Counted from the first letter of the stretch, positions 166 to 17,053 are shown. The stretch: 47,053 bases of DNA from Gemmatimonadota bacterium (GCA_022823225.1 JAJDXM010000012.1:1-47053), one strand, 5' to 3'. The notes: generated by a model from the sequence alone, not told the origin. Translations and numbers: made by a program.

Positions 166-1452
166 TCACCTCTCGATCCAATACATCGCCACCCGCTCGA
201 CATCCAGCTCATCCCGCTCGCGCAGCAGCATGTAGTCGTCTCCGATTTCAAGGATGTCGCGCGCCGGCCCCGTCGTCATGCGGGCCAGTGGAAGAGCGTT
301 CTCGTCGAAGATGGTCCAGTTCAGTTGTTCCGTGTTGACCAGCATGGGCGACGGAACGTAGTCGGCGATCCAGAGGCGCCCGGAATCGTCGAACCGGAGT
401 TCGCTGAAGAACGGCACGCGGCCTCCAGTCGAAACCGTGCCCAGGTACTGCAGCGCCTGTTCCGCGACGCCCACGTTCTCAGGGTTGTCCACCAGGTCCA
501 TGATCGCCTCGAGGTGCCCCCGGGTCACAATCTGCGGTTCCCTGCTCACCCGCAGGATGCGCCTGAGGGCGCCGGAGGAGTCGCGAAACCTGACCTCCCA
601 GCGATCCGACTCGGCAAGCGCAAGCCCGCGCGGGCCGAAGGCCCTGTGCCCGTGAGGAGAAAAGAGTTCCGGAACGCTCCAGACTGCCAGCGTACCTCCC
701 ACCATCCACGAAATGTTGGCCCACCCCATGTCCGAAACGGAATCGAACAGCTCGACACCGTCTGCCACCTCGAGTGCCAGAGTGTGAGTCGTCCCCGGAT
801 ACCGGCGGACCACATTGTGTCTTGGCGGCGGCTCCGGTTCCTCCGGTTCCTGAGGGCCGAACCAGAAAGGGGTGCCGTCGCCGACGAGTCCGTCGAAGTA
901 GCAGCGGAGCGCACCGCGCGCGCGGAGGGTTTGAGTGACGGCCGAGCTGCACGCGGCCGATTGAGTCTCCACAAGCGCGGCCTGGTCGTCGAAGAACGTC
1001 AGTCTCCTCAGCGAACTATCGAACACCGCGAAGCCGCCTTCCCGCAGCTTTCGCATGAACACCACCCGCCTGAACTCTCCCGGACCTTCACCCCGCCGCC
1101 CGAACGCCCTGCGAAACACTCCGTCGGGACCGAAGACGCGGAACTCCAACCCATTCTCATCCACGATCACGATCTCGTCGGACGGCAGCCTGATCGCCCC
1201 GGCAATCATCCCGAACATGTATGGATCCTCGCCGGTATCGACGCCGATCGTAACCGCGGTCTCGCCGGACAGCGACCATTCGGGCAGGGTGTAGAGCGTT
1301 TCTCCGCCCACTTCCACGATCCGGATGTACGCCGAATCGGTGACGGTCACGCCCATGGAGACGGCACGGGGCACGGAATCCTGTGCGCAACCGGAGACCG
1401 ACGTGACCATGGCGATCACCAGGAGGAACGGAGGACTTTGGCAGGACGGCAC
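166..1452 (-). CDS. Exported 6-bladed beta-propeller lipoprotein
   Basis: This is a 428-aa protein of the 6-bladed beta-propeller (NHL/DUF5128-like) class. The N-terminus is a short hydrophobic segment ending in a lipobox (VSGC, then AQDS), so it is probably anchored to a membrane as a lipoprotein. The class signature RRGEGPGEF is present about a quarter of the way in. Repeated blade strands follow, such as SGRLWIADYVP near the C-terminus. The GTG start at 1452 is the only one that keeps the whole signal segment, although the n-region lacks lysine or arginine. It is the last gene of a long minus-strand run and starts 3 bp after a truncated copy of its own C-terminal third. The ligand or function is unknown. 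Confidence 0.85.
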   Translation of the reverse strand: MPSCQSPPFLLVIAMVTSVSGCAQDSVPRAVSMGVTVTDSAYIRIVEVGGETLYTLPEWSLSGETAVTIGVDTGEDPYMFGMIAGAIRLPSDEIVIVDENGLEFRVFGPDGVFRRAFGRRGEGPGEFRRVVFMRKLREGGFAVFDSSLRRLTFFDDQAALVETQSAACSSAVTQTLRARGALRCYFDGLVGDGTPFWFGPQEPEEPEPPPRHNVVRRYPGTTHTLALEVADGVELFDSVSDMGWANISWMVGGTLAVWSVPELFSPHGHRAFGPRGLALAESDRWEVRFRDSSGALRRILRVSREPQIVTRGHLEAIMDLVDNPENVGVAEQALQYLGTVSTGGRVPFFSELRFDDSGRLWIADYVPSPMLVNTEQLNWTIFDENALPLARMTTGPARDILEIGDDYMLLRERDELDVERVAMYWIER

Positions 1453-1455
1453 TGG

Positions 1456-1824
1456 TCAGTGCGCCGGTCCGCGCTCAATGCGATACATCGCCATGCTCTC
1501 CACATCCATGTCGTCCCGCTCGCGCAGCAGCATGTAGTCGTCTCCGATTTCGAGGATGTCGTCCGAAGGTCCGGTGGTCATGCGTGCAAGAGGCAATCCG
1601 TTCTCGTCGATAATCGTCCACCGCCACTCCTGTGGCACGACCAGTACGGGGTCAGGGACGTAGCTGGCAATCCAAAGGCGTCCGGATTCGTCAAAGCGCA
1701 TCTTTCCGATGAAGGGCATCGGGCCTCCGACCGTAACGTCGTTCAGGTAGTCCAGCGCCAACTCTGCGGGGCTCAGGCTTGCTGCGGTACCGATTAGCTG
1801 TCTGATCGCATCTTGGGTAACCAT
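1456..1824 (-). CDS. Truncated 6-bladed propeller copy (probable decaying duplicate)
   Basis: This 122-aa reading frame matches only the last third of the next gene (166-1452). Both share long stretches such as LARMTTGP, DILEIGDDYMLLRERD and SGRLWIA. Alignment begins at its first residues (MVTQDAIR against IVTRGHLE), so the signal peptide and the first four or so blades are missing. Without a signal it could not be exported like its neighbours. The DNA of the shared end is still closely similar, which points to a fairly recent partial duplication. The frame is intact and lies 6 bp after the preceding stop, so it may still be translated. I think it is a remnant rather than a working protein. 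Confidence 0.6.
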   Translation of the reverse strand: MVTQDAIRQLIGTAASLSPAELALDYLNDVTVGGPMPFIGKMRFDESGRLWIASYVPDPVLVVPQEWRWTIIDENGLPLARMTTGPSDDILEIGDDYMLLRERDDMDVESMAMYRIERGPAH

Positions 1825-1830
1825 ATAACG

Positions 1831-2991
1831 TCAACGCTGTCGCCCAGCAGGGCGTATTGTTAGAGACTGGATCAGCCAAAGGGGAACCCCAAGATCGTCG
1901 GCCGTGAGGCGCAGCGCAGTTTCGCCGCTCAAGAGGCCAAACACATATTGGTCGAATCGCTGAGTGGCAACGATCTCGTTGGTGTTCAAGTCGATAACCT
2001 CGACCATCGTGTCGAATCGGTTGTCTAGAGCGTCTCCGGACTGCGCAATCCGTGTCCCCGGAGGCGATGGAGTCCAACTCGGATCCGGTACTGGAACGAC
2101 GGTCCACAGACGCGAGCCGTCTCCCGAAATGCCAGCTAAGTGCGGCGAAACCTTGCCGTCGTCGCGACGGGTCGTTCGCAAGGGGAACCATTCCGCCTCG
2201 CGGGTCCAGACTCTCTCAATGGAACGTCCGTTCCACAGCTCAATCCGGTAAGGCCTGCCCGACGCCGAGGTCGAAAGGAAGCGCCCGTCGTCAAGCACTA
2301 TGACGTGGCGCCTGCCAACCCCCTCCGCTCCGGGCATAAGGCTGGCTTCCGGACCAAACGACTCGAGAATCGTCCCCCTGAGATGGACCAGATGAAAAGG
2401 AATCCCGGCCAGTTCCGGTGTCCGAATGGATGCACTGACCAGGAGAACAGAGTCGGAAACCGGGAGCGCCCAACTGATCCTGTGCGGGAAATAGTTGGAT
2501 TCGATGAACGTCCCGTCCCTTTCCAGGATCGAAACACGAACGTTGTCCTCGTCAAACACGGCCACCCGCCCACTCGGCAACTCCACGATGGGCATCGGCC
2601 GCTGGTATTCGCCGGGTCCCTCGCCCGATCTCCTGATCGTGAACTCAAGTTGGCCATCCGCACGGTAGAAGAACATCTCGCTCCCGCCCGCACCGAAATC
2701 GTGAACGTAGATGCGGCCGCTCGCCCCCCGATTGACGTAGACGCTGCCGGTCAGGAGGTTGTCGCCGTCATAGTCACCGCCAAGCACGGCGACCGTCTCG
2801 AATCTGATGCAGTCCCGGCAGATGTCTGCAGATTCCCTGAGTTGGACAACCTCTTGGGCAACCAGACCAACAGAGACGTTTCCCAGGATCAGGCCGGTAC
2901 TGACAACCACCGGCAGGACTCGTCGCGTCAGCGAGTCGAGAGCCTTGAAGCGCGGGGATTCGCCCGCTGGACATCCTCTGAAATGGCGCAT
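1831..2991 (-). CDS. Secreted 6-bladed beta-propeller protein
   Basis: A 386-aa 6-bladed beta-propeller. I chose the ATG at 2991 because a clear GGAGGT ribosome binding site lies just upstream. An earlier in-frame start at 3021 has no such site. The N-terminus has a classical Sec signal (hydrophobic stretch VLPVVVSTGLILGNVSVG, cleavage after a VAQ site) and no lipobox, so it is likely periplasmic or secreted. The mature protein begins with a cysteine pair, CRDC. The propeller signature RSGEGPGEYQRP follows. A 109-bp gap with hairpins separates it from the upstream propeller gene, so this could be an internal break in the operon. Confidence 0.85.
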   Translation of the reverse strand: MRHFRGCPAGESPRFKALDSLTRRVLPVVVSTGLILGNVSVGLVAQEVVQLRESADICRDCIRFETVAVLGGDYDGDNLLTGSVYVNRGASGRIYVHDFGAGGSEMFFYRADGQLEFTIRRSGEGPGEYQRPMPIVELPSGRVAVFDEDNVRVSILERDGTFIESNYFPHRISWALPVSDSVLLVSASIRTPELAGIPFHLVHLRGTILESFGPEASLMPGAEGVGRRHVIVLDDGRFLSTSASGRPYRIELWNGRSIERVWTREAEWFPLRTTRRDDGKVSPHLAGISGDGSRLWTVVPVPDPSWTPSPPGTRIAQSGDALDNRFDTMVEVIDLNTNEIVATQRFDQYVFGLLSGETALRLTADDLGVPLWLIQSLTIRPAGRQR

Positions 2992-3021
2992 CAGTTCACC
3001 TCCGGCAGCACGCCCGCACAC

Positions 3022-3056
3022 GGCGTGCCACCCACGCCGCGCACGCTTACGCGGCG
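3022..3056. repeat. Overlapping GC-rich inverted repeats upstream of a propeller gene
   Basis: Two inverted repeats share this leader region. GGCGTG (3022-3027) pairs with CACGCC (3033-3038) around a 5-base loop. CGCCGCG (3035-3041) pairs with CGCGGCG (3050-3056) around an 8-base loop. They overlap and so are mutually exclusive. They lie in the 109-bp gap between two propeller genes, upstream of the ribosome binding site at about 2998. No T-tract follows, so a classical intrinsic terminator is not evident. Confidence 0.4.
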
Positions 3057-3100
3057 CAGAGGGTTGAGCACGACCTTGTTTGAACGATCGGAAAATCCCT

Positions 3101-4333
3101 TCACCTGCCTCCCCCCGAGCGTACGAGCCTTCTCCCCACGACGTACCTCACCCCCAGCTCGTCGTAGCGTTCTCCCCACACATGGGTGTCGTTGACGTCG
3201 CGAGGGTTGAACTGCTCGGGCAGGACGATCCTGCGAATCGCTCCGTCGGTCTGGCCACGCGGGGCGGTGTACCAGACATGTGAAGCATTCTCCACAGGAG
3301 AGCGGAACCAGATGTCGCCGTTCGCCATCAACCGGATTCCCCTGATTGCGGGCCAGTATTCGGGGACAATGAGCGTCTCACGGATTCGTCGCTTCAGCGA
3401 AGGCGAAGGCACGCTGTCTCCCCCGGAACCTCTGGCAATCGTCGCAGCCGTCCGTTCAACGTCCGCCTCGACCTCTTGCTCACCGAGGGGAACGGGCGCC
3501 AACTGAAAACGGCGGACCCAGAGGGTGTCGCCGGACGCCGCAGCCACCTCCACCATCTCCACAACCCCCGGCGGCATGTCCTGAGTCCTTGCGCACACCA
3601 CACTCTCCGTCACGGCATCTGCCCGACACGTATCCTCGTAGACCCAGGTTTGCGAGAGCAGGCGCGGAAAGTCGTTTCCCGCAATCGGGAATACGATCGT
3701 CGTGTTCCGGATGCTCATCTGTGCGATCGTGTCCAGTGTCCACGACCCGTCCCTCTGACCGGCACGGAGGAAGGGAATCTCGTGCATCGGGTCGTCGCCG
3801 GTGAGTCCTTCCGTGACCATCCCGGGAAGCGTCGGGACGCCCAGAAAGCTGCCATCGTCCAGGAGCGCCTCGTTGGCAATCGGAAATCCCCGCCAGCTCA
3901 CAAACGGGGGCAGCACATCGCGAACGACGAATTCGCCTTCAAGCGAGAACGTTGTGAAACCTCGCAGGTCCCGCACTTGAAGCACGTCGTCCAGAAGGCG
4001 GACTTCGCCCGGCCGCCAGAGGTCGCCCGGTCCTTCTCCCTCCCGTCCGAAGCGGCGTATCAAGTCTCCGCCGGGGGTCCAGACACTGACTTCGGAAGCG
4101 GTCTGGTCCAGCACATACACTCTCGACCCATCGGTGGCTACATCCACGTCGACCACAAGTCCAAACAGGGCGTCACCGTCGAACACATCCCCGAATTCGT
4201 ACTCCGCCTGGGTGACCCATTCCTCGATGGGGGTAAGCGAAATATCGTCTACCCGCGTATCGCCGTCGCACCCGCAGACCGCCAAAAGGACCGACAGGCA
4301 CAGGGTCGCGTTCTCCGAAGGCCTTGTAGTCAT
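3101..4333 (-). CDS. Exported 6-bladed beta-propeller lipoprotein
   Basis: A 410-aa 6-bladed beta-propeller with a short signal sequence ending LLAVCGC, most likely a lipobox with the second cysteine lipidated, followed by the acidic linker DGDTRVDD. The signature REGEGPGDLWRPG lies about a quarter of the way in. It is a clear paralogue of the next gene upstream (4330-5550). Shared segments are EEWVTQAEYEFGD against QDWVTEPHYEFGD near the start and FNPRDVNDTHVWGERYDELG against FNPRDVTETHVWGERRDELG at the end. The two overlap by 4 bp (ATGA), so they are a tandem duplicate pair that is probably translationally coupled. Confidence 0.87.
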   Translation of the reverse strand: MTTRPSENATLCLSVLLAVCGCDGDTRVDDISLTPIEEWVTQAEYEFGDVFDGDALFGLVVDVDVATDGSRVYVLDQTASEVSVWTPGGDLIRRFGREGEGPGDLWRPGEVRLLDDVLQVRDLRGFTTFSLEGEFVVRDVLPPFVSWRGFPIANEALLDDGSFLGVPTLPGMVTEGLTGDDPMHEIPFLRAGQRDGSWTLDTIAQMSIRNTTIVFPIAGNDFPRLLSQTWVYEDTCRADAVTESVVCARTQDMPPGVVEMVEVAAASGDTLWVRRFQLAPVPLGEQEVEADVERTAATIARGSGGDSVPSPSLKRRIRETLIVPEYWPAIRGIRLMANGDIWFRSPVENASHVWYTAPRGQTDGAIRRIVLPEQFNPRDVNDTHVWGERYDELGVRYVVGRRLVRSGGGR

Positions 4334-5550
4334 ACGCCCGGTACAGGCGCGATCAAGCGCCGCCCCACCACGTACTCGATTCCCAGCTCGTCACGCCGCT
4401 CCCCCCACACATGGGTCTCGGTGACGTCTCGAGGATTGAACCACTCCGGCAGGGTAATCCTCCTGATCGGACCATCGCCGTCGGCCCTCGGAACCGCGTA
4501 CCACACACCGGGGACATCGCTCTTCGCTGCTCGAAACCATATCTCCCCATTTGACATCACGCGGATCCCCCTCGTCACGGGCCAGGCCTCGGGCACGACG
4601 ATCGCGCCGCGCACCCTCCGCCTCAGGGACTGCGAGGGTATGCTGTCGCCACCCCACGAGGCAAAGGCCGCGGCGGTACGATGCACGACCGCCTCGACTT
4701 CGTCGTTCGCGATGGGAACCGGTGGCAAGCGCACCTGCCTCGTCCACACCGTATCGCCGGCAGGGGAGATTTCGATGAGCTCGAGTGTCCCGGGCGGGGC
4801 TGCTTCCATTCGTGCCACGATTGCGTGCCCGCTCACCGGATCCCCCCGAAAGCTGTCCGGGACGACCCACTCCTGCGTCAGGTTGGCCGGAAGCGTCTCG
4901 CCCGGCAAACGGAAGGGCACCACCCAGTTCCGATAGCTGATCACGGCGAGCGTGTCCAACGCCCACGACGAGCCTTCCCTGAAGACCCGAACCGCCGGCA
5001 GAACATCGACGGGGTCGTCGCCCATCGAGCCAGCCATGATCCGGGTCGGGACGATCGGAGTGGCCACAACGCTACCGTCGGCGAACAGTGCCTCATGCCT
5101 CAACCTGAACCCGCGCCAGCTCATCGACGGTGGAACCATGTCGGTTCGCAGGAAGTTGCCGTCCAGTCCAAAAGTGGTGAACCGGCGCTCGTCCGAGACA
5201 TGGAACCTGTCCTGGAGGACTGCGAGGTCAACGGGCCTCTGGAACTCGCCCGGGCCCGGGCCGTCGCGCCCGACACGCCGGATCAGGGTGCCGTCCGCCG
5301 TCCATATGGTCACTTCCGCGGAACGGCCATCCAGCACATAGACGCGAAGCATCTCTGCGGAGGCATGGACATTCACATCGGTGACGGAGCCGAACACCGC
5401 GTCCCCTTCCATGGCGTCCCCGAACTCGTAGTGCGGCTCGGTGACCCAGTCCTGGACGGGCGTGAACTCGCTTCCGCCTTCGGGCGCGTCGTCCGAGCAA
5501 CCGACCAGGATGGGCATCGCCAGCCAGGCTGCCAGCCGTAGGGGTCTCAT
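4330..5550 (-). CDS. Exported 6-bladed beta-propeller lipoprotein
   Basis: A 406-aa 6-bladed beta-propeller. The ATG at 5550 gives a compact signal peptide (MRPLRLAAWLAMPILVGC) ending in a lipobox. A GGGGAA site lies upstream, within the end of the preceding small gene. Longer in-frame starts at 5604 or 5574 would add a signal-incompatible arginine-rich extension. The family signature RDGPGPGEFQRP is present. It is the tandem paralogue of 3101-4333. The acidic SDDAPEGG just after the lipid cysteine is a typical spacer for a surface or periplasmic lipoprotein. Substrate unknown. Confidence 0.86.
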   Translation of the reverse strand: MRPLRLAAWLAMPILVGCSDDAPEGGSEFTPVQDWVTEPHYEFGDAMEGDAVFGSVTDVNVHASAEMLRVYVLDGRSAEVTIWTADGTLIRRVGRDGPGPGEFQRPVDLAVLQDRFHVSDERRFTTFGLDGNFLRTDMVPPSMSWRGFRLRHEALFADGSVVATPIVPTRIMAGSMGDDPVDVLPAVRVFREGSSWALDTLAVISYRNWVVPFRLPGETLPANLTQEWVVPDSFRGDPVSGHAIVARMEAAPPGTLELIEISPAGDTVWTRQVRLPPVPIANDEVEAVVHRTAAAFASWGGDSIPSQSLRRRVRGAIVVPEAWPVTRGIRVMSNGEIWFRAAKSDVPGVWYAVPRADGDGPIRRITLPEWFNPRDVTETHVWGERRDELGIEYVVGRRLIAPVPGV

Positions 5551-5560
5551 GCGCGCCCTG

Positions 5561-5818
5561 CTATTCCCCGGCATTGGTCGTGACGGCGACCGGTGCCTGC
5601 CCAACGTCCCGCAAGTCGATCCGGGCTACGATGGTGTTGGCTCCGCACTTGCTTCGCAGCAGCAACCGGTCCCCACGTGTCGCGACATAGAAGTTGCCAT
5701 CGCCGGGCAACATCCCGCCGCTCTCGAATGCCCGAATCGCTGCATCCTGAGCGGCACCGAGTGCCATCGTCTGGCCTCCACCCTCACAGAAGTCACCGTG
5801 GTCGCGACCGAATCGCAA
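5561..5818 (-). CDS. Remnant of a cysteine-rich secreted protein family
   Basis: This 85-residue frame starts at a TTG and has no signal peptide. Its sequence around CEGGGQTMALGAA and RGDRLLLRSKCG lines up loosely with the C-terminal half of the cysteine-rich protein at 9575-10096 (CGDGGQMQALADA, RGDLVVEYLG). Upstream of the TTG the same frame stays open to a stop at 5864-5866 and reads cysteine-rich residues (CRGERPC, RHC). This looks like the broken end of the family's cysteine domain. I read it as a decayed copy. It lies between two propeller genes, 10 bp before the next start. The homology is by eye and weak. Confidence 0.45.
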   Translation of the reverse strand: MRFGRDHGDFCEGGGQTMALGAAQDAAIRAFESGGMLPGDGNFYVATRGDRLLLRSKCGANTIVARIDLRDVGQAPVAVTTNAGE

Positions 5819-5877
5819 GCCAAGTGTACAGTGTCTGGAACATGGTCTCTCTCCTCTGCAGTGTCAGGATGAATCGA

Positions 5878-7023
5878 TCATCTGCACGGTATGGGTAACG
5901 AGTATCGATCTATGATGAGGCCGGGCACTGTAGTCACCTGCCCGCTGCCCGGCCTTGTGGTCGAGATCCGGTAAACCTGGTACCGCACGGAACCAGCGGG
6001 CGTCACGGCGGTCCTGCCGATCATTCCCGGCGCGACGAAGTTGCTGAATTCCTCGTCCAGCCGAACCCGTCCGATCACTCGCAACGCATCGAGGTCGATG
6101 ACTTCGATGATGGTGTCAAAGAAGCCGTCACGGTCAGGATTGCCAGGATTCGCCTCCGATGCGTCCCGCCAACGTTCGTCCGCGACTTGGAGTTTGACCC
6201 ACAATTGAGAGCCTGTTGCCGCCAGGGATCCGAGTATCGCGTTCGGTCGTTCAGACCATCCATGGACCATGGTGGACAAGGTCGCTGCCGGGAACCACGG
6301 CACGTCGCGCACGAGAGAGCGTTCGAGACCGTCCGGTGTCCATAGCTCGATGCGGTACTCGTACCGCCGGGCCGCCCATACGGCGCCGGCCGGTCCTTCG
6401 GCAAGCACCCGACTCATTCCACCTGCGTCACTGAGCCGATACTCACCCGTCAAGGACCCAAAGGAGAGGCCCACGCTGCCGTCGTCCAGGTCGACGACGT
6501 GAAGCGGAAGGCCCGTTCGCTCAGGCGTTGGCACATTCGCTGCAATGACCATCCCCAGGCCATCGGCGTACACAACGCCGTTGCTGGTCGGCGCGAACGG
6601 CAACCGCGTTTCACGCAGGAGTTTGCCTGCAGAGTCGAAGAACTTGAGGCCGCTGGGGTCGTCAAGCACGGCGACGACGCCATCGTCGAACTGGAGAACG
6701 GATCTGATCAACCTGAACTCGCCGGGCCCCTCGCCGCTTCGACCGAAGCGATGCAGGAACCCGCCCGCACCGTCGTAGACCTTGACTGCGGTGGGTGGAT
6801 TGTCGACCAGGTACCAGCGACCGTTGTTGCCTGGGAAGCCTCGCACATACTCACCGAGCATCCCCGGCCCCTCATCGTCTCCGAATGTCCCCGCAAGCTC
6901 AACAACGAGCGGGCATGGCGCTTCGCATTCCGAAATCGGGATGAACTGCGCACTGATGTGGGCAACCGGAACACAGGAGGCGACAGTGGCAATCAGAAGC
7001 CAGCCCACCAGCTCCCGTTTCAT
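5878..7023 (-). CDS. Secreted 6-bladed beta-propeller protein
   Basis: A 381-aa 6-bladed beta-propeller. The ATG at 7023 overlaps the stop of the FGE-like gene upstream (ATGA) and gives a Sec signal (MKRELVGWLLIATVASC..., likely cut after HISA). A cysteine in the hydrophobic core could alternatively be read as a lipobox, but the cleavage at ISA is more conventional. The mature N-terminus carries a cysteine pair (SECEAPCPLVVELAG), like the CRDC of 1831-2991 and the DCEACP of the FGE-like neighbour. The signature RSGEGPGEF is present. It is probably in the same transcript as its neighbours. Confidence 0.85.
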   Translation of the reverse strand: MKRELVGWLLIATVASCVPVAHISAQFIPISECEAPCPLVVELAGTFGDDEGPGMLGEYVRGFPGNNGRWYLVDNPPTAVKVYDGAGGFLHRFGRSGEGPGEFRLIRSVLQFDDGVVAVLDDPSGLKFFDSAGKLLRETRLPFAPTSNGVVYADGLGMVIAANVPTPERTGLPLHVVDLDDGSVGLSFGSLTGEYRLSDAGGMSRVLAEGPAGAVWAARRYEYRIELWTPDGLERSLVRDVPWFPAATLSTMVHGWSERPNAILGSLAATGSQLWVKLQVADERWRDASEANPGNPDRDGFFDTIIEVIDLDALRVIGRVRLDEEFSNFVAPGMIGRTAVTPAGSVRYQVYRISTTRPGSGQVTTVPGLIIDRYSLPIPCR

Positions 7024-8168
7024 GGGCCTGCCCGGGCGGACCATGGTTGGCTCGCTACGCGCACCACTTCCACCATGGTTCCGTCGCCCCGTTTGTGTAC
7101 GACCGGAAAGGAATCCTGCTGCTCCACTCCAAACTGCGTCTCCGCCTGGGCGACACTCGAGCCGTCTGGAAGAAAGTGATCAACGCAGGGCGGGAGAAGC
7201 GTGACGCTTTTTGGTTCCCTACCGAGAAGATCCCGGGCCACCCGGAACCCCGCGTTACTCCGTCGGGTCACCGATTCCGCGAAGAAGCGGGCGGCCGAGC
7301 GCAGATTGACCTGGGTCGAACCCCACGAGCCGCCACGCCACACTCTCGACTCGCACAGGCCATCCGTCCATGCGCTGCCGTCGTCGGGAGCGCCGTCATA
7401 GACGTTGAATTGCGCCGCGGGGACCGGGACATCGCCGGGGGTCCGAAAGCAATCCTCCGTCCATTCGAAGACGTTCCCCACGAGGTCGTACACCCCGAAC
7501 CCATTCGCCTCATATGTCCCTGCCGGGGCGGTGTATACATACCCATCACTGCACTGTGTCGTCCTGCGGTGGGGGTTGGGAGAAGGGGGCAGAGCCGCGG
7601 CCGCGTCCAGGTCGTGACCGTTCGCGTGCCGACACTGATCCGACGGCGCGTCGCCCCAATACCACCTCGTCTCCGAGCCCGCGCGCGCAACGTACTCCCA
7701 CTCCGATTCGCTCAGTAGCCGGTACGACTCCCCGGTGTGGTCGGAAAGCCACTCGACGTACGCCTTCGCGTCATGCCAGTCGACGTTGATCACCGGGCGG
7801 CTTCCGCGGCCCCATCCTTCGTCGCCTGGGCGGTACCCTCCGCATCCTCCGGCTTCGACGCAGGCATCCCACTCAGCGAAGGTCACCTCGTACCTGCCGA
7901 CCGCAAACGGAGCCGCGAACGTCACTTCATGCTGCGGGCGCTCGGACCCTTGCCCCCCTTCCCCCGACAGTGCGGTTTCCGACTCCGGCGATCCCATCAG
8001 AAAGGTCCCCGCCGGCACTACGATCACAACCGGGCACGCCTCACAGTCCTGGATGACCTCTCCTGCTTCCTGACCGGCTGCCGGAAGTCCGGAAAGAAGA
8101 ACCAGGAACAAACCCAGGACCATAACGGTGCATCCGCGGCTCCACGCCAACCTCGTGGGAATCGTCAC
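7020..8168 (-). CDS. FGE-sulfatase-fold (SUMF1/EgtB/PvdO family) secreted protein, catalytic cysteines absent
   Basis: A 382-aa protein with a Sec signal (hydrophobic VMVLGLFLVLLSGLPAAGQ) and an FGE-sulfatase domain over roughly residues 45-320. Characteristic motifs are VPAGTFLMGSPESE, GRYEVTFAEWDAC, RLLSESEWEYVARAG, GVYDLVGNVFEWTED and RVWRGGSW, ending in GFRVARDL. True formylglycine-generating enzymes have two cysteines shortly after the RGGSW motif. Here that segment reads GSTQVNLRSAAR, so the enzyme activity is unlikely. A 55-residue tail follows the domain and matches nothing I recognise. The GTG start at 8168 has a GGGAGGG site inside the end of the upstream gene. It overlaps the next propeller gene by ATGA. 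Confidence 0.85.
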   Translation of the reverse strand: MTIPTRLAWSRGCTVMVLGLFLVLLSGLPAAGQEAGEVIQDCEACPVVIVVPAGTFLMGSPESETALSGEGGQGSERPQHEVTFAAPFAVGRYEVTFAEWDACVEAGGCGGYRPGDEGWGRGSRPVINVDWHDAKAYVEWLSDHTGESYRLLSESEWEYVARAGSETRWYWGDAPSDQCRHANGHDLDAAAALPPSPNPHRRTTQCSDGYVYTAPAGTYEANGFGVYDLVGNVFEWTEDCFRTPGDVPVPAAQFNVYDGAPDDGSAWTDGLCESRVWRGGSWGSTQVNLRSAARFFAESVTRRSNAGFRVARDLLGREPKSVTLLPPCVDHFLPDGSSVAQAETQFGVEQQDSFPVVHKRGDGTMVEVVRVASQPWSARAGP

Positions 8169-8171
8169 GGT

Positions 8172-9572
8172 TCAGCCCTCCCGGTCAATTCGGTAGCCCT
8201 CCAACCTCTCCCTCCCCAACTCGTCACGCCGCGTGATCACGAACATGTCCCTGTCGATCCAGCAAGGTGCAACGACCCTGCAGAGCCACGGCTCCGCAAG
8301 GCCTTCAAGTACGCCAAGCCATCGACCCTCCGGACTGAAGACGCTCCACTGATCCGGCATTCCGGTTTCCGACGCCGACCACTCCCGCACCCACAGATGT
8401 CCCTCGGTGTCGACGACCAGGGCGGCAACTGCGGGATATGTGTCTCTCGGGGGCAGCGCCCTGACGACTGCAGCCATGTAGTCCTGCCCCAATGAATCGG
8501 CCAGTGCCGCCAGGTACTGCTTCCTTGCCTCGTCCGCCCTTGGGGTCACCGCAAGCGGATCACCGCTGCGGCGGATGCTCCGCACCAGTGTTCCGTCAAG
8601 CGCGAATTGCTGTATCTCGTTGCGGTCACCGTTGCTGATGTAGACCATCGGCGGATCGCCCCCCACCGCGATGTGCGAATCGAGCATCATGTCCGCCGGG
8701 GCCACGTCCGGGATCTCATGTTCCTCATGAAGCCGCTGTGGCACCGCCCATGCCTCCGGACCGTCCCACGTGCCCCCCAGCGGGACAGGCATGTATGTGC
8801 TGGGGTCGATCCTCGAAAACTGTACGGACGGATACCGGAACATGGTGCCATCGGCCGGGCGCGCGAAGTCGGGATCCCAGTGCTCTACCGCGACCACGAA
8901 GGACCCATCCGGCAACGGCGTCGTCGGAGATTCAGCCGTGGCGTCCGGCAGCGAAGCCAGCGTGCGGCTACGGTCGGTCGGCCGTTCGGTGAGGAGCGTG
9001 CCGGTGGTGTCGAAGTAGCTCACGGGTCCCATCCAGTGTTCCCACACCGCCAACGTGTCGGGCGGCAGGTACTGCATGTGTTCAGGACGAACGAACTCTC
9101 CGGGACCCGGCCCTCTGCCTCCGATGGCACGGGAAAGCCTGCCGGATGGCTCGAAGACAACGACCTGATGGACCCCCGCGGACAGGACTGCGATGCGATG
9201 GTCCGCCAGGCGGGCCACTCCCCTGACCTCGAAGATCAGCGCAGCCAATTCCTCACGGGTACGACTATCCCCCCATTCCTCGTCCCAGGCCAGGCCGTGT
9301 TCGGTCCCACCCAGGACGAACTCCGGCTCCGCACTCAGCGACCAGAAGCTCCCGGGCGACCGCTCCGGTGCATGGTTCTCGACGATCTCGACGCCCGCCG
9401 AGTCATGGATCGTGACCCCCTGCAGAGAGGCCGGCCGGGGCGGGTCCGGCGAGTCGGAGTCACAACCGAATCCGCCAAGGATGATCGCGAGGGTGGCGGC
9501 GGCCGCCGGGCACGCTCGGGGGCGGGTGGCGGTGCCAGGGTGCGTCTGCAAGGCAGGTCGGTCGCCATCCAT
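8172..9572 (-). CDS. Exported 6-bladed beta-propeller lipoprotein
   Basis: At 466 aa this is the longest propeller here. A long arginine/proline-rich lead (about 20 residues) precedes a hydrophobic segment ending in a lipobox (IILGGFGC), then an acidic DSDSPD spacer. The family signature RGPGPGEFVRPE is clear, and the segment VISNGDRN-like strands continue the propeller. Start choice is between an adjacent GTG (9575) and ATG (9572); both overlap or abut the TAG of the cysteine-rich gene upstream. The 3-bp gap to the FGE-like gene argues for one transcript. Ligand unknown. Confidence 0.85.
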   Translation of the reverse strand: MDGDRPALQTHPGTATRPRACPAAAATLAIILGGFGCDSDSPDPPRPASLQGVTIHDSAGVEIVENHAPERSPGSFWSLSAEPEFVLGGTEHGLAWDEEWGDSRTREELAALIFEVRGVARLADHRIAVLSAGVHQVVVFEPSGRLSRAIGGRGPGPGEFVRPEHMQYLPPDTLAVWEHWMGPVSYFDTTGTLLTERPTDRSRTLASLPDATAESPTTPLPDGSFVVAVEHWDPDFARPADGTMFRYPSVQFSRIDPSTYMPVPLGGTWDGPEAWAVPQRLHEEHEIPDVAPADMMLDSHIAVGGDPPMVYISNGDRNEIQQFALDGTLVRSIRRSGDPLAVTPRADEARKQYLAALADSLGQDYMAAVVRALPPRDTYPAVAALVVDTEGHLWVREWSASETGMPDQWSVFSPEGRWLGVLEGLAEPWLCRVVAPCWIDRDMFVITRRDELGRERLEGYRIDREG

Positions 9573-9574
9573 CA

Positions 9575-10096
9575 CTACGGCACCCCAGACTTCATTGCTG
9601 CTTCAAGTTCCGCCCGGAACTCCGGGACAATCGCGACAGTAGCCATTGGGACAACCGGATCGCAAGGTAGCATGAAATCGATCCGACCCGCTTCCCCGAG
9701 ATACTCGACTACCAAATCCCCTCGGTCTTCGAGTATTGCTGCTGCAACCATCGTAACGTCTGCCGCGTTGAGGCCTGCCCGGACCTCCGAAACAGCGTCG
9801 GCCAAGGCTTGCATCTGGCCACCGTCACCACAGGGTTGATGGCAGGGGCCACTGCGCCAGTCCGTGTGACACTCCGACTCTCCCCCACAGCGGACGCAGT
9901 GCTCACCCGCTGGTTCATCGCAGTGAAACCCGCCGGCGGTAAAGCGGTGCTGCTTCCACAACCCCCAGCCCCTCTCCTCGCACCAGGCGCAGATCACTCC
10001 GTCCTGTGCTGCGGCTGGAACGGGAGCCACTGCGGACACCGTCAGGAGTGCCCAAACGGCGAGAAGAAGGGGAAAGAGTTTGCGTGAGCTAGGCAT
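9575..10096 (-). CDS. Secreted protein with an 8-cysteine domain
   Basis: A 173-aa protein with a textbook Sec signal (residues 1-30, ending PVPAAA). The mature N-terminal region carries eight cysteines (positions 36, 39, 59, 67, 70, 76, 85, 89) in a C-x2-C, HC, C-x2-C, C-x3-C arrangement with several histidines. This could be a disulfide-knotted or metal-binding domain. A cysteine-poor helical half follows, with one more cysteine at 145. No family name is recognised. A GAGGAGG site lies 6 bases before the ATG. The shared promoter-like element at 10159-10187 is about 60 bp upstream, making this the first gene of the propeller run. A relic of a related gene lies at 5561-5863. Confidence 0.75.
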   Translation of the reverse strand: MPSSRKLFPLLLAVWALLTVSAVAPVPAAAQDGVICAWCEERGWGLWKQHRFTAGGFHCDEPAGEHCVRCGGESECHTDWRSGPCHQPCGDGGQMQALADAVSEVRAGLNAADVTMVAAAILEDRGDLVVEYLGEAGRIDFMLPCDPVVPMATVAIVPEFRAELEAAMKSGVP

Positions 10097-10370
10097 TGAA
10101 GGCCTCCTCGGGGATGTGAGACGCTGTCATGGAGGCGGTTCCTCCATAGACTAACTGCATATCAGTTCTCGACGCCAGAACGTGCAATCCCGTGCCTGGG
10201 AGCACGTCCGCGATGCTGAAAATGCGTTCCGATGCTCTCTTCCAGTGGCCGACAGCGAGCGGCTGTATTGCCAGGAAGAGCGATTTGATTGACAGAGATG
10301 CGTATAGTGGAAAGCGATGGGCTGGGTCGCCAAGCACGAGGGCGGCGAAAAGCGGGACTGTTATTCTCAT
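10089..10370 (-). CDS. Possible small exported protein, doubtful
   Basis: A 93-residue frame from the ATG at 10370, preceded by a good GGGAGG site (8-base spacing) and by a copy of the shared promoter about 60 bp upstream. Both say that something here is expressed. The protein starts like a signal peptide (MRITVPLFAALVLG) but the next residues (DPAHRFPLY) do not complete a cleavage site. The rest shows no recognisable motif and weaker third-position GC than its neighbours. Another copy of the promoter lies inside the frame. It may be a frameshifted, degenerate small exported gene, or a leader transcript. It overlaps the next gene by 8 bp. If this frame is not real, 10097-10431 holds only promoter and leader sequence. 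Confidence 0.3.
   Translation of the reverse strand: MRITVPLFAALVLGDPAHRFPLYASLSIKSLFLAIQPLAVGHWKRASERIFSIADVLPGTGLHVLASRTDMQLVYGGTASMTASHIPEEAFNA
10159..10187 (-). promoter_or_regulatory. ECF-type promoter element (copy 1), upstream of the cysteine-rich/propeller run
   Basis: On the minus strand TTGCACGTT (hexamer TTGCAC at 10187-10182) is followed after 17 bp by TGATAT (10164-10159). The -35-like half is identical to the other four copies in this window and the spacer length is the same. The -10-like half is the most divergent copy (TGATAT against TGTCTA). It lies about 62 bp before the ATG at 10096 and would start transcription near 10152. Confidence 0.6.
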
Positions 10371-10431
10371 GGCATTGCCTCCCTCTGGGGTGAACTGATC
10401 ACTCGGCGGCGGAATCGCCCTTCTGATGACA

Positions 10432-10460
10432 TAGACAGTTCCGGGACGCGAAACGTGCAA
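10432..10460 (-). promoter_or_regulatory. ECF-type promoter element (copy 2)
   Basis: TTGCACGTTT (hexamer at 10460-10455), a 17-bp spacer, then TGTCTATGTC (hexamer TGTCTA at 10437-10432) on the minus strand. Both halves match copies 3 to 5 closely, and the spacing is the same. It precedes the doubtful small gene that starts at 10370, with a predicted start of transcription near 10425. Confidence 0.65.
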
Positions 10461-10497
10461 TTTGATTTTTCCCGGCGCACGCGCGGGCCACCTTCCG

Positions 10498-11100
10498 TTA
10501 CCCCGCAGAAGCCCGGTCCACAGCTCCCAACAGGGCGCCAGCCACTTCCTTCAACTTGCTGCCGTGGCCTTCACTGACGACGACGCCCTCCTCATCGATG
10601 GCGATAATCCATGGCGCACGCGCCGTGATCATCCGCGCCGTGTCGTAGTCGAGACTTTCCGGCGTCGCCACCGGGACGTGCCATCCCATTTCGCGGGCGT
10701 AAGCCGCCGCTGGACGGGCAGATCCGGGGGAGATGACGAGAATCTGCAGGTCTTCCGCGTGCACGCCCGAAAGCCACGCCGCCCAAGCCGGCGCCACCTG
10801 CCCCGTATGGGGACAGTCCGGATCGAAGACCAGCAACAGGGTGGGGCGTTCGGCACCCAGCTGAACCACCGTGCCGTCGACGAGGTCCATCGACAGCGTC
10901 GAGATGTCGTCGCCGACGGTCAAGAAATCCGATGGGCCGAAGGCGCGGGCCCGTGCACCGAGCGCTATGAGCTGTGCGACGGCGAGGACGCCCAATCCGA
11001 GAACCAGCGTGCGTCGGCGTTGCCTTGACCGGTGCGAAGGCAGATCGTGGCAACGTTCCCTGCGGTTGCTGGTTCGATTCCGGGGAAGAAGTGTGTGCAT
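10498..11100 (-). CDS. Membrane-anchored thioredoxin-like (redoxin/MauD-type) protein with a single active-site cysteine
   Basis: A 200-aa protein with an arginine-rich cytoplasmic lead, one transmembrane segment (about residues 31-48, TLVLGLGVLAVAQLIALG) and a periplasmic thioredoxin fold. The strand-turn-helix start reads LLLVFDPDCPHTGQVAPAW. The usual CxxC is replaced by CPHT, with one cysteine at 96, as in some peroxiredoxin-like redoxins. A cis-proline-like PWIIAIDEEG segment lies near residue 167. The ATG at 11100 has AGGAG upstream and a shared promoter copy about 70 bp before it. Its neighbours encode cysteine-rich exported proteins, so a role in their thiol or disulfide chemistry is plausible but inferred. 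Confidence 0.75.
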   Translation of the reverse strand: MHTLLPRNRTSNRRERCHDLPSHRSRQRRRTLVLGLGVLAVAQLIALGARARAFGPSDFLTVGDDISTLSMDLVDGTVVQLGAERPTLLLVFDPDCPHTGQVAPAWAAWLSGVHAEDLQILVISPGSARPAAAYAREMGWHVPVATPESLDYDTARMITARAPWIIAIDEEGVVVSEGHGSKLKEVAGALLGAVDRASAG

Positions 11101-11171
11101 CGGTAGAACTCTCCTGGTCCGTGGTGGCCACCGTTCTGGTCGCCAGGGTTGGTTGTGGCTATCACCACACA

Positions 11172-11200
11172 CAGACAGGTGCCGAACGAAGAACGTGCAA
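11172..11200 (-). promoter_or_regulatory. ECF-type promoter element (copy 3), upstream of the thioredoxin-like gene
   Basis: TTGCACGTTC (hexamer at 11200-11195), a 17-bp spacer and TGTCTGTG (hexamer at 11177-11172) on the minus strand. It matches copies 2, 4 and 5 except for one base in the -10-like half. The expected start of transcription is near 11165, about 65 bases before the ATG at 11100. Confidence 0.65.
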
Positions 11201-11228
11201 TCGAGCCGATGGACCAGGTGGTCCTCGA
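11201..11228. repeat. Inverted repeat after the anti-sigma-like gene
   Basis: GGACCA (11211-11216) and TGGTCC (11219-11224) form a perfect stem with a 2-base centre. TCGAG (11201-11205) can pair with CTCGA (11224-11228) outside it, with unpaired bases between. It lies 20 bp after the stop at 11249 and directly upstream of the next promoter element. It could therefore end the sigma operon or bind a regulator. No T-tract is present. Confidence 0.35.
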
Positions 11229-11248
11229 GTCGCCGCGTACCGTGACGC

Positions 11249-11626
11249 CTACCTTGCGCGATCCCTGTTCCAGAGGTACGCCGCAACCGCGCCGCCACAC
11301 ACGACCGACGCCGCTGCGCGAAGGAGGAGGGGCGCCGTTTCCGCTCCGGTCATTCGGCCAAGGAGGAAGGCGAACATCGCCACGCCGACGAGGAGCCCGG
11401 CTATGGCAGCCTCCCAGCGGGCGGGGGGCCGTTCGAGCTTCCGCTTTCGGGGTTCCAGCCGGGAAATGGCGGCCTCGATCAGGTCATGCCGCGCGTCGCC
11501 TGGCGGGTCCATTGCCATTCGGGTCCCCTCGACCAACGCATCAGGCCGGCCGCTCGTCGGCTCTTCCACCCGATCCTGGTCGTCGGCCCGAGGGTCCGCC
11601 GGTGATGTCGTATCCGGACGCTTCAT
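11249..11626 (-). CDS. Small two-TM membrane protein, candidate anti-sigma factor
   Basis: A 125-aa protein. Residues 1-70 are hydrophilic and probably cytoplasmic, including a predicted helix HDLIEAAISRLEPRKRKLE. Two hydrophobic segments follow, at about 72-90 and 98-118. The gene starts inside the stop codon of the sigma factor (ATGA overlap), so the two are translationally coupled. An ECF sigma factor is commonly followed by its membrane-bound anti-sigma factor. I infer that role from position and topology, since I see no zinc-binding HxxxCxxC anti-sigma motif. It could instead be an unrelated small membrane protein. Confidence 0.65.
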   Translation of the reverse strand: MKRPDTTSPADPRADDQDRVEEPTSGRPDALVEGTRMAMDPPGDARHDLIEAAISRLEPRKRKLERPPARWEAAIAGLLVGVAMFAFLLGRMTGAETAPLLLRAAASVVCGGAVAAYLWNRDRAR

Positions 11627-12219
11627 TCCCGATAGTCCTTCATCATGATGCGAAGCCTCTTTCTTGCGTGCCGAAGGTTGGACCGGACGGTTTCCGGGCG
11701 CACCCCCTGAACCCTCGCCGCCTCCGCGATGGTGTACTCCTCGACATGGACCAGAAGGAAGGTGTCGCCCTGCTTCCTGGGCAGCCGCGCCACACAGTAT
11801 CGCAGCCGATCCTTGAATTCGGTTTGCGCGAGGTGCTGGGCGGGATCGAACCCGTCCTGACCCGCACCGTTCATCGACACCGCCTCGGAGAGATACCTGG
11901 CCTCCTCTCTCCGCCGCGTCTTCCGTTTGTCGGCCCAGTTGGAGCAAACGCTGCCCGCCACCCTGTTGATCCATCCGCGCAAGGAGCCGCGACCCGTGTA
12001 CTGCATGCGCCGCTCCCACACTCGGATGCACACCAATTGGAACAGGTCGTCCCGGTCGCTCTGGTCACGGGCATACGAGGCCGCCACGCTCTCGATCAGG
12101 GGGCTGAAGTGCTCCAGCACCTGACTCAGACGGTCGAGGTCACCGCTCTGGAAGTCCTTGAAGTCGAGTTCGGCTTCGTCGTCACGCTTGTCGCGGGTAC
12201 TTCTGGAACCGTCACTCAT
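11623..12219 (-). CDS. ECF-family RNA polymerase sigma factor
   Basis: A 198-aa sigma-70-family protein of ECF size. Region 2 spans roughly residues 30-105, with DRDDLFQLVCIRVWERR and a GRGSLRGWINRVAGSVCSNW segment. Region 4 spans roughly 140-190, with LPRKQGDTFLLVH, EEYTIAEAARVQGVRPE and the recognition helix TVRSNLRHARKRLR. Regions 1 and 3 are absent, as expected. It is the middle gene of three coupled by ATGA overlaps, between two membrane proteins. Upstream of the operon is a copy of a promoter repeated five times in 3.5 kb, so it is probably autoregulated. The start at ATG 12219 is fixed by the overlap. Confidence 0.9.
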   Translation of the reverse strand: MSDGSRSTRDKRDDEAELDFKDFQSGDLDRLSQVLEHFSPLIESVAASYARDQSDRDDLFQLVCIRVWERRMQYTGRGSLRGWINRVAGSVCSNWADKRKTRRREEARYLSEAVSMNGAGQDGFDPAQHLAQTEFKDRLRYCVARLPRKQGDTFLLVHVEEYTIAEAARVQGVRPETVRSNLRHARKRLRIMMKDYRE

Positions 12220-13019
12220 ACATGGCGCTTGCGCGCGATGCCGAACAGCACCGCACTCAGCAGGAGTGGCACCACCAGCGGAATCCATGCGCCCAGGATT
12301 CCCGACCGCATCGTGCCGTCCCGCACGAATGGCTGCGTCGGTCCGGCCAGCACCACAGCCCCGAAGAAGGCCAGGCCGCCCAGCACCCCCAGCGCCAGCA
12401 GAGCGTTCCTCCGGGCACCGCGCCCGAAGTTCTCGGTGAGCTGATTGGCAAACACCCCCGCGAGCGTGTTGATCAAGCCGAACACGGCCATGGCGACGGG
12501 CAGGTGGAGGTGCCACCTGAGTACGTTGGGCGGAGCCCTTGTCTGTTCGCTGACGCGCAGACTGTATTCCGCCGGCTGACTGGCTTCAACCGAGCGTAGG
12601 TTCCGGAGGATTCCCGAGGGGGTTGCGGCCCCAAACGGGTGCAAGTCAACGACCTCTGGCCCCTGGGTTTCCCAATATCGCTTTTCCATTGCAGGGGCGC
12701 CCCACGCGGCAAGATAGTAGGAAGACGCGGCGACCGCGATACCAAAGGCCGCGGCGGTTGGAAGGAGGCGTCGCGAATAACCCATCACCCGGGCGATCCT
12801 CACACCGCCTGCGAAGAGCAGGAACGGCAAGATGAAGCTCAGGTCGTCGACGATCCACCAGACCCACCATGAAGGGACCGGGAACTGGTCGTCGGATGAC
12901 CATTGGAACAGCAGCAGAGTCCTAATCCCGACCAACAGCGCACACCAAGGCAGCATGGCTGCCAGGCCCGCCGCCGCGCAGGCCAGCACGGAGGGCCGCT
13001 CAGCTGCTATCGTCCGCAT
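12216..13019 (-). CDS. Multi-pass membrane protein of unknown function in the sigma operon
   Basis: A 267-aa protein with about six hydrophobic segments: near residues 10-37, 53-70, 82-107, 172-192, 205-228 and 240-262. Between segments three and four is a hydrophilic loop of about 65 residues. The segment HLPVAMAVFGLINTLAGVFANQL recalls the late membrane segments of LptF/LptG-type permeases, but this is only a faint resemblance. It overlaps the cysteine-rich mini-protein gene by 20 bp upstream and the sigma factor by ATGA downstream, so all four genes probably share one transcript. It could be a sensor or co-regulator of the sigma factor. Confidence 0.75.
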   Translation of the reverse strand: MRTIAAERPSVLACAAAGLAAMLPWCALLVGIRTLLLFQWSSDDQFPVPSWWVWWIVDDLSFILPFLLFAGGVRIARVMGYSRRLLPTAAAFGIAVAASSYYLAAWGAPAMEKRYWETQGPEVVDLHPFGAATPSGILRNLRSVEASQPAEYSLRVSEQTRAPPNVLRWHLHLPVAMAVFGLINTLAGVFANQLTENFGRGARRNALLALGVLGGLAFFGAVVLAGPTQPFVRDGTMRSGILGAWIPLVVPLLLSAVLFGIARKRHV

Positions 13020-13239
13020 TCCAGGTTTCCAGTGTGGAAGTCTCCAGATTCGGGTCTCTACACTGCGCGTCTGTCTGACAGTGGATGCCTAGCCAGCAGC
13101 ACTTCCGACAGCAGTACGCATCCTCCCCATCGCCCCGACAGCAGTTTATGAATCCACTCCCAGGGCTCGTCGTCGTCGTAGCCTGAGCGCCTCCCAGCGC
13201 GAGGTTGAGCAAGATGAGTACCATGGCGAATCTGCGCAA
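13000..13239 (-). CDS. 8-cysteine secreted mini-protein
   Basis: A 79-aa protein. The TTG start at 13239 is preceded by AAGGAG at a good distance and gives a signal peptide (MRRFAMVLILLNLALGGAQA). The first ATG (13224) would lose the basic n-region. The mature part is about 59 residues with eight cysteines at 33, 34, 43, 44, 47, 48, 54 and 60, three of the pairs being adjacent CC. Such density suggests a disulfide-rich or metal-binding peptide. It is the first gene of the sigma-factor operon, right after a copy of the shared promoter. No family is recognised. Confidence 0.65.
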   Translation of the reverse strand: MRRFAMVLILLNLALGGAQATTTTSPGSGFINCCRGDGEDAYCCRKCCWLGIHCQTDAQCRDPNLETSTLETWNADDSS

Positions 13240-13321
13240 CGTAGTCTCTCCTTGTTGCTGTGGGGCTCACCCGGTTCGGGATCATCGCCCGTCTCTAAAG
13301 GGTTGGCTTCTCTGGGGACTA

Positions 13322-13350
13322 TAGACAGCTGCCGGCGGCAATCCGTGCAA
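13322..13350 (-). promoter_or_regulatory. ECF-type promoter element (copy 4), upstream of the sigma-factor operon
   Basis: TTGCACGGAT (hexamer at 13350-13345), a 17-bp spacer, then TGTCTATAG (hexamer at 13327-13322) on the minus strand. It stands about 85 bp before the TTG start of the mini-protein that leads the sigma-factor operon. This is the copy that would make the sigma factor autoregulated. Confidence 0.65.
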
Positions 13351-13364
13351 AACCGGCCGGTCGG

Positions 13365-13598
13365 TCAGTCGGCTGCGGCGCGGTGCCGCTCCTCTGTTGA
13401 TTCCTCGGCGGACTCTTCCGTCGTGTCCGCTTCAAACACCATCACGAGCGCCTCTTCCCGGAACGTCGCGTGCTTCAGTTGGCCCTGGACGAAGTAGCTA
13501 CAGTGCACCTCCCTGTCCTCGGTGTCTTCGACCGTCATCCACGGGCCACCACTCCTGAGCATCACGATGTCTCCAGCGTGGGGGTATTCGCTCATCAT
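13365..13598 (-). CDS. YodC/DUF2158-like small protein
   Basis: A 77-aa protein matching the YodC (DUF2158) pattern: GDIVMLRSGGPWMTVED, then VHCSYFVQGQLKHATFREEAL. This small SH3-like domain is common in proteobacteria and has no established function. An acidic tail (EESAEESTEE) follows the domain. I chose the ATG at 13598, with GGAGGGG upstream. An ATG three bases later and a GTG at 13634 are alternatives. A copy of the shared promoter lies just upstream at 13654-13682, which puts it in the same regulon as the cysteine-rich genes. Confidence 0.75.
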   Translation of the reverse strand: MMSEYPHAGDIVMLRSGGPWMTVEDTEDREVHCSYFVQGQLKHATFREEALVMVFEADTTEESAEESTEERHRAAAD

Positions 13599-13653
13599 CT
13601 GCTTCGGTCTCCCCTCCGTCGTTGCCGGACGCACTTGTGGCTTTCAATAGACA

Positions 13654-13682
13654 TAGACAGCTGCCACGGGAGAAACGTGCAA
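13654..13682 (-). promoter_or_regulatory. ECF-type promoter element (copy 5), upstream of the DUF2158-like gene
   Basis: TTGCACGTTT (hexamer at 13682-13677), a 17-bp spacer, then TGTCTATGTC (hexamer at 13659-13654) on the minus strand. The last bases before the -10-like half (GGCAGC) are identical to copy 4. Transcription would start near 13647, about 50 bases before the ATG at 13598. Confidence 0.65.
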
Positions 13683-13752: not shown

Positions 13753-13779
13753 AACGTGACATTATGTAATGTCGACGTT
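13753..13779 (-). terminator. Hairpin at the end of the Asp-box protein gene
   Basis: AACGT+GACATTA (13753-13764) pairs with TAATGTC+ACGTT (13767-13773 and 13775-13779) around a 2-base centre, with one bulged G. The stem overlaps the TAA stop of the minus-strand gene ending at 13778, where a terminator would sit. The T-tract after it is poor, so Rho-independent termination is only possible. A regulatory inverted repeat is the alternative. Confidence 0.4.
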
Positions 13780-16954: not shown

Positions 16955-17053
16955 GAGTGCATTCCTGTGGGAGAAGACGTCGAAGTTGTCGTACACGCGG
17001 CTGGAGGTGAAGAGGTACTTCGGGGTGACCATGGCGAGGTCGAGCCGCCCCGC

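Follow-up and report, generated by a model that had tools for sequence, protein, structure and literature searches.

A candidate autoregulated promoter set of an ECF sigma factor, spread over a Gemmatimonadota genome

A stretch of 47,053 nucleotides from a Gemmatimonadota bacterium (the window) holds the gene of an extracytoplasmic function (ECF) sigma factor at 11623-12219, surrounded by minus-strand copies of one -35/-10-like motif. The locus raises the question of which copies form one promoter class and whether this sigma factor reads them. The preliminary description had counted five copies and proposed a compact regulon within 3.5 kb. Within a model that covers the whole sigma family, the sites at 13682, 13350, 11200 and 10460 are very probably -35/-10 promoters of this sigma factor, and an autoregulated ECF promoter set, with these four sites and spread over the genome, is strongly supported in silico.

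The genome of the window (4.19 Mb, 96% complete) was counted for promoters by pattern searches. The comparison set comprised 98 genomes of relatives, 75 of them outside the genus; many were fragmented metagenome-assembled genomes of Gemmatimonadota, isolate names point to sponge projects for several, and one is from sediment. The sigma family set contained 34 loci (the window, contig C58 of the same genome, and 32 from relatives) with about 30-75% sigma identity, nearly all from the window's genus. Gene starts in the window and the relatives were predicted with a simple custom caller. Searches of the open-access literature found no description of this sigma family.

At the four sites, the minus strand reads TTGCACG-N16-TGTC, with the consensus TTGCACG-N16-TGTCTRTR (Table 1). 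The exact form TTGCAC-N17-TGTCTATG occurred twice in the window and not once in 100 shuffles. When up to one mismatch was allowed, TTGCACG-N16-TGTCTATG was found at only 10 places in the whole genome: four in the window, three on C58 (5813, 10112, 18603), two on C74 (223, 2196) and one on C16 (45938). A further site with two mismatches, C59:39301, was judged convincing; at three mismatches the genome matches fell to the control level (45 in total versus 54 for the reversed pattern). Sites of this class lie on five contigs or more, and the compact regulon of the preliminary description did not stand.

The comparison with relatives carried the assignment. The sigma orthologues of two same-genus genomes, G008 and G012 (the sister genomes), were 74-75% identical to the window's sigma factor, and in both genomes the motif recurred at the four equivalent positions and in the same gene context (DUF2158 gene, sigma operon, redoxin and fourth transcript). 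Among the 98 relatives, the exact motif gave 41 matches in nine genomes, all of the window's genus, and the reversed control gave none; the 75 genomes outside the genus had no match. Since the motif accompanies sigma orthologues at identical positions and is absent outside the genus, an autoregulated set is strongly supported, and the scan of related genomes proposed earlier came out in its favour. Lone matches in G014 and G022 lay inside genes and were excluded as regulon members, as was a match ahead of an efflux-type operon in G010 and G006. The latter (L241:1720 in G006, L240:1883 in G010) lies 150 bp ahead of the operon and is kept in both genomes, which have no clade-A sigma (the clade of the window); it may be a chance match.

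The same architecture extended to the family. TTGCAC-N17-TGTC occurred 47 times in the 34 family loci, the other gaps of 11-22 gave 0-2 matches, the reversed pattern gave one, and 40 foreign ECF loci gave none. A gap of 23 gave six matches, probably because TGTC is repeated in TGTCTATGTC. Bases outside the search pattern were also conserved, namely a TT behind the -35 (88 and 80%) and a GRGAAC ahead of the -10, and a same-strand start lay 35-450 bp downstream of 51 of 64 sites (median 112). A blind search for repeated dyads was swamped by duplicated DNA, yet indicated TTGCAC-17-TGTCAA in distant paralogues. Exact TTGCAC-N17-TGTC sites were present in 17 of the 34 loci; the other 17 had the same -35 with a different -10 (TGTT, CGTC, CGTT, TGGTCTG or TCTC forms), mostly at the same spacing. 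The idea of promoter-less family loci was dropped when these sites appeared on relaxing the -10. Non-coding TTGCAC[A/G] was found within 4 kb in all 34 loci, 86 times in total, some of them by chance (control density about a quarter). The paralogue family, from marine Gemmatimonadota, appears nearly restricted to the genus, with a predicted -35 that is kept and a -10 that has come to differ from clade to clade. Within the proteins, conservation was highest in the sigma4 recognition helix TVRSNLRHA (0.76), versus 0.57 for the loop expected to face the -10, and this loop differs between sigma clades. Its placement follows general structural knowledge of ECF sigma factors. With such divergence, several paralogues could control regulons that are for the most part separate, and the distinct target genes of one locus have a common -10.

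It is unlikely that the promoters are read mainly by the clade-B paralogue on C58, or by both sigma factors as one shared regulon. This alternative draws on the clade-B promoter, whose -10 TGTCTATTA is near-identical to TGTCTRTG at the same -35 and spacing, and on contig C74, where A-type and B-type -10s lie 2 kb apart. However, in G008 and G012, which have both sigma factors, TGTCTRTG was kept at the A loci and TGTCTATTA at the B loci, and the -10 class tracked the sigma tree: classes assigned by eye ahead of the test changed 10 times on the tree (minimum 8, shuffled mean 24.4). The -10 mismatches were 3.32 within a locus versus 4.48 between loci (0 of 5000 permutations), and in a Mantel test -10 distance correlated with sigma distance at r = 0.26, a value reached by 1 of 5000 permutations, and at 0.11 without close orthologues; tree and permutation statistics alike are inflated by related sequences. 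This inflation and the assignment by eye weigh against the promoters being those of the window's sigma factor and its family, as do three other points: in about half of the 34 loci, sites appear only with a relaxed -10, the case for the anti-sigma factor (see below) is made from the place of its gene and an identity of about 30% with zinc-motif proteins, and cross-recognition with paralogue B, with its very similar promoter in the same genome, may occur. Because the C58 promoter is near-identical, proximity alone does not assign a sigma factor to each dispersed site; of the earlier claim that the window's sigma factor reads its sites, orthologue synteny backs the autoregulated set in silico.

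Two further explanations deny the sites the role of promoters or any role of their own. The repeats might have been operators of a transcription factor, given that several of them occupy divergent intergenic regions, a common place for operators. This reading was rejected as very improbable, since the spacing of 17 bp is strict, the sites contain no palindrome and are oriented toward a gene start; moreover, a T-tract follows the -35 as in ECF promoters, and the divergent regions hold two opposed copies, one per gene. It is hardly credible that the sites merely arose by duplication of a single DNA segment and have no function of their own: some leaders behind sites of the fourth type are also alike, but the sites precede unrelated genes, their spacers differ, and they persist where the flanks are only 76% identical. 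Promoters of the clade-A sigma factor remain the preferred reading of the four sites.

The fifth copy, at 10187, did not belong to this class. As the preliminary description had stated, it has the same TTGCACG and spacer length as the others. The -10 was said to vary by at most three bases; the hexamer TGATAT at 10187 differs from TGTCTA at four of six. Moreover, the two sister genomes carrying the other four sites do not have the fifth. Its -35 and spacer are 23 bases identical to a site in a clade-H sigma locus (G012:C28), where the -10 is TGGTATG; the promoters of the clade-H paralogue read TGGTMTG. The window is 92% identical to that locus over 7217-9931 and 89% over 10103-10227, which holds the site, whereas 10396-13702 matches clade-A loci instead, at 76%. 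The divergent -10 and the match of about 90% to a clade-H locus led us to reject all five sites as one class, leaving four of the five copies described earlier. Searches of the window's genome (96% complete) found no clade-H sigma and no TGGTMTG motif. G008 carries this propeller module at its clade-B locus, downstream of a clade-B promoter. One effector module thus stands behind three promoter forms in three genomes. The site at 10187 is most plausibly a promoter of another paralogue's class, orphaned or in decay, which would have arrived with the imported propeller module. The propeller/FGE-sulfatase module (window 7217-10227, L137 and L147) was seen at three sigma loci in three genomes, 88-92% identical and with different promoter forms.

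The genes behind the sites were then considered. Every copy had been said to precede a start codon. This applied to 13682 (start at 13598, DUF2158 protein), 13350 (13239, a TTG, for the Cys-rich peptide, then the sigma operon), 11200 (11100, redoxin-like) and 10187 (10096, Cys-rich exported protein), but not to 10460, which has no convincing gene before 10096 in the window. The sister genomes have a second ECF sigma gene, a small one that is missing in the window and begins 78 bp past the equivalent site. Sites of the fourth type (L103:3211-3310, L104, L029:223 and 2196, window 10430-10360) have behind them a leader that contains a strong stem-loop (in L103/L104, GTCATC.CGTGGGC..GCCCACG.ATGAC), and these leaders lead into the same first ~29 small-sigma codons, sometimes truncated.

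The sigma factor consists of region 2 and region 4 only, in about 200 residues, which places it among ECF sigma factors. The site at 13350 stands in front of its operon, as described earlier, and is kept there in orthologues, which fits an autoregulated promoter; most ECF sigma factors autoregulate (PMC3817407). The first gene encodes a peptide with the pattern CC..CC..CCW..C, conserved in the sister genomes. The predicted fold of the six-helix protein resembles the LptF/LptG permeases of the lipopolysaccharide exporter (Z 14-17.6; next unrelated fold 7.9), with Z 17.6, 234 residues aligned and a root mean square deviation of 3.4 for LptG, and a Foldseek E of 1.1e-3. It differs from these permeases in being encoded beside an ECF sigma factor and in its periplasmic part: no strand of the beta-jellyroll is present in the AlphaFold2 (AF2) model. 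No LptB gene was noticed in the cassettes, and no genome-wide search for LptB was made. By comparison of two tables, 45 of the 48 relatives of this protein in the 98 genomes lie within about 600 bp of a family sigma.

The protein at 11249-11626 had been named the candidate anti-sigma partner. It has the layout of class I (ASDI) anti-sigma factors: it adjoins the sigma factor, has membrane segments and is homologous to the zinc-motif proteins at the same position in other clades. It matched none of the anti-sigma models searched; its C58 homologue matched NF052375 at 7.6e-08, below the cut-off. The motif Hx3Cx2C is absent in the window and L123/L124 and present in all other clades in which a downstream anti-sigma was found. 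Among class I anti-sigmas, Hx3Cx2C is present in some and missing in others, and mixed zinc/non-zinc groups are known (PMC7406223); loss of the motif need therefore not mean loss of function. The usual family cassette is predicted to comprise a jellyroll-less six-helix LptF/LptG-fold protein, the sigma factor and a membrane anti-sigma, with the zinc motif lost in the window's clade only.

In the window's genome and the sisters, the genes behind the promoters encode DUF2158 proteins, redoxins, Cys-rich exported proteins and propeller operons. The DUF2158 gene is kept behind the first site in the sister genomes and also occurs behind a clade-B site, and redoxin homologues lie behind clade-B sites. 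As regards the regulon members proposed earlier, the DUF2158 and redoxin-like proteins stand behind their own sites, the module at 10187 belongs to the other class, and the run of propellers would be reached only by transcription that reads through from 10460 or from the atypical site at 10187. Targets in the sister genomes also include regulators, namely small ECF sigmas with regions 2 and 4, a LuxR-type and an AraC-type helix-turn-helix protein. With these second-tier regulators in the sisters and the small sigma missing in the window, a regulatory cascade is likely in the relatives and reduced here.

From these data we infer sigma binding, sequestration, an envelope signal and the direction of the cascade. 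The sigma4 region would read the -35 TTGCAC(G) and sigma2 the -10 TGTCTRTG. One promoter would drive the sigma factor's own operon (Cys-rich peptide, LptF/G-like protein, sigma and membrane anti-sigma), and the others the DUF2158 protein, the redoxin, and the leader ahead of the exported Cys-rich and propeller proteins. The anti-sigma would keep the sigma factor at the membrane while the cell is at rest; an envelope signal, possibly via the LptF/G-like protein, would release it, and positive feedback would follow. A link to disulfides or to the redox state of the envelope may be read from the redoxin and the Cys-rich proteins, and a sensing role at the envelope from the LptF/G-like protein. 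Tentatively, and as a picture somewhat more doubtful than probable, the whole might be a nearly genus-restricted system in which ECF sigma and jellyroll-less LptF/G envelope sensor form an obligate pair, paralogues have multiplied with sigma4/-35 constant and sigma2/-10 diverging, propeller and Cys-rich modules are re-wired by promoter exchange, and second-tier regulators (small ECF sigmas, LuxR- and AraC-type) head target operons.

Like the RpoE/RseA, SigW/RsiW and SigR/RsrA types, the locus has a sigma2-sigma4 protein, a membrane partner gene overlapping the sigma stop, its own promoter ahead of the operon and a small regulon with a common -35/-10. It differs from autoregulated ECF/class I operons in the jellyroll-less LptF/G-fold protein beside the sigma factor and the loss of the zinc motif in one clade. 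The common ECF -35 is of the AAC type, from which TTGCAC differs. The sigma-I paralogues of Clostridium thermocellum (36-45% identical) are likewise alternative sigmas with promoters partly common and partly diverged for specificity, which resides mainly in the upstream -35 part, with the A-tract and -10 tetrad largely kept (PMC6056542). Here the halves are reversed, and the sigma and anti-sigma families are others. A natural series of paralogous sigma/promoter pairs with one half fixed and the other free would be useful for studying how ECF specificity evolves without cross-talk. In addition, a regulon is predicted from sequence alone for an uncultured, largely sponge-associated lineage, and an LptF/G-fold protein is indicated as an unexpected partner in ECF signalling.

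Table 1. Predicted promoter sites and genes at the sigma locus of the window.
Feature	Position	Strand	Remarks
Predicted promoter 1, clade A: TTGCACG-N16-TGTCTATG	13652..13682	-	84 bp ahead of DUF2158-like gene; same place in L103/L104
Predicted promoter 2, clade A: TTGCACG-N16-TGTCTATA	13320..13350	-	Heads sigma operon (autoregulation)
Predicted promoter 3, clade A: TTGCACG-N16-TGTCTGTG	11170..11200	-	Upstream of redoxin-like gene
Predicted promoter 4, clade A: TTGCACG-N16-TGTCTATG	10430..10460	-	With leader; relatives' small sigma gene missing here
Fifth site, other class: TTGCACG-ttctggcgtcgagaac-TGATATGC	10157..10187	-	Within module common to clade-H locus
Small DUF2158-like protein, 77 aa (89 aa with a GTG start at 13634)	13365..13598	-	PF09926 28.2 bits, cut-off 22.3
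Cys-rich secreted peptide, 79 aa, TTG start, first gene of operon	13000..13239	-	Frame kept in L123/L124
Six-helix membrane protein, LptF/LptG fold, no periplasmic jellyroll	12216..13019	-	AF2 pLDDT 88.8; directly upstream of sigma
ECF sigma factor, sigma2 + sigma4, 198 aa	11623..12219	-	PF04542, PF08281 and TIGR02937 (89 bits) above cut-off
Putative membrane anti-sigma, two hydrophobic segments, 125 aa, Hx3Cx2C lost	11249..11626	-	Overlaps sigma stop
Membrane-anchored redoxin/MauD-like protein, 200 aa	10498..11100	-	Weak TIGR02661 and PF00578 matches
Cys-rich exported protein, 173 aa	9575..10096	-	
6-bladed propeller protein, DUF5128-like, imported module	8172..9572	-	
Exported FGE-sulfatase-domain protein, imported module	7020..8123	-	PF03781 1.2e-49; module match from 7217
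Run of DUF5128-like propeller proteins, possible read-through targets	166..7044	-	

Some neighbouring genes were also recorded. On C59 of the window's genome (L030:9404-11053), one frame directly behind a family promoter combines a response-regulator receiver domain (PF00072, 5e-10), a lipobox and a DUF5128-like propeller, and C74 retains a remnant of this receiver start (L029:630). A MauE-family membrane protein and a redoxin adjoin the clade-B sigma locus on C58 (L027:10212-11398). Furthermore, a 1084-aa exported protein with a sortilin/VPS10-type propeller (PF15902) is encoded at 13778-17032 of the window, just upstream of promoter 1, and also occurs in G012.

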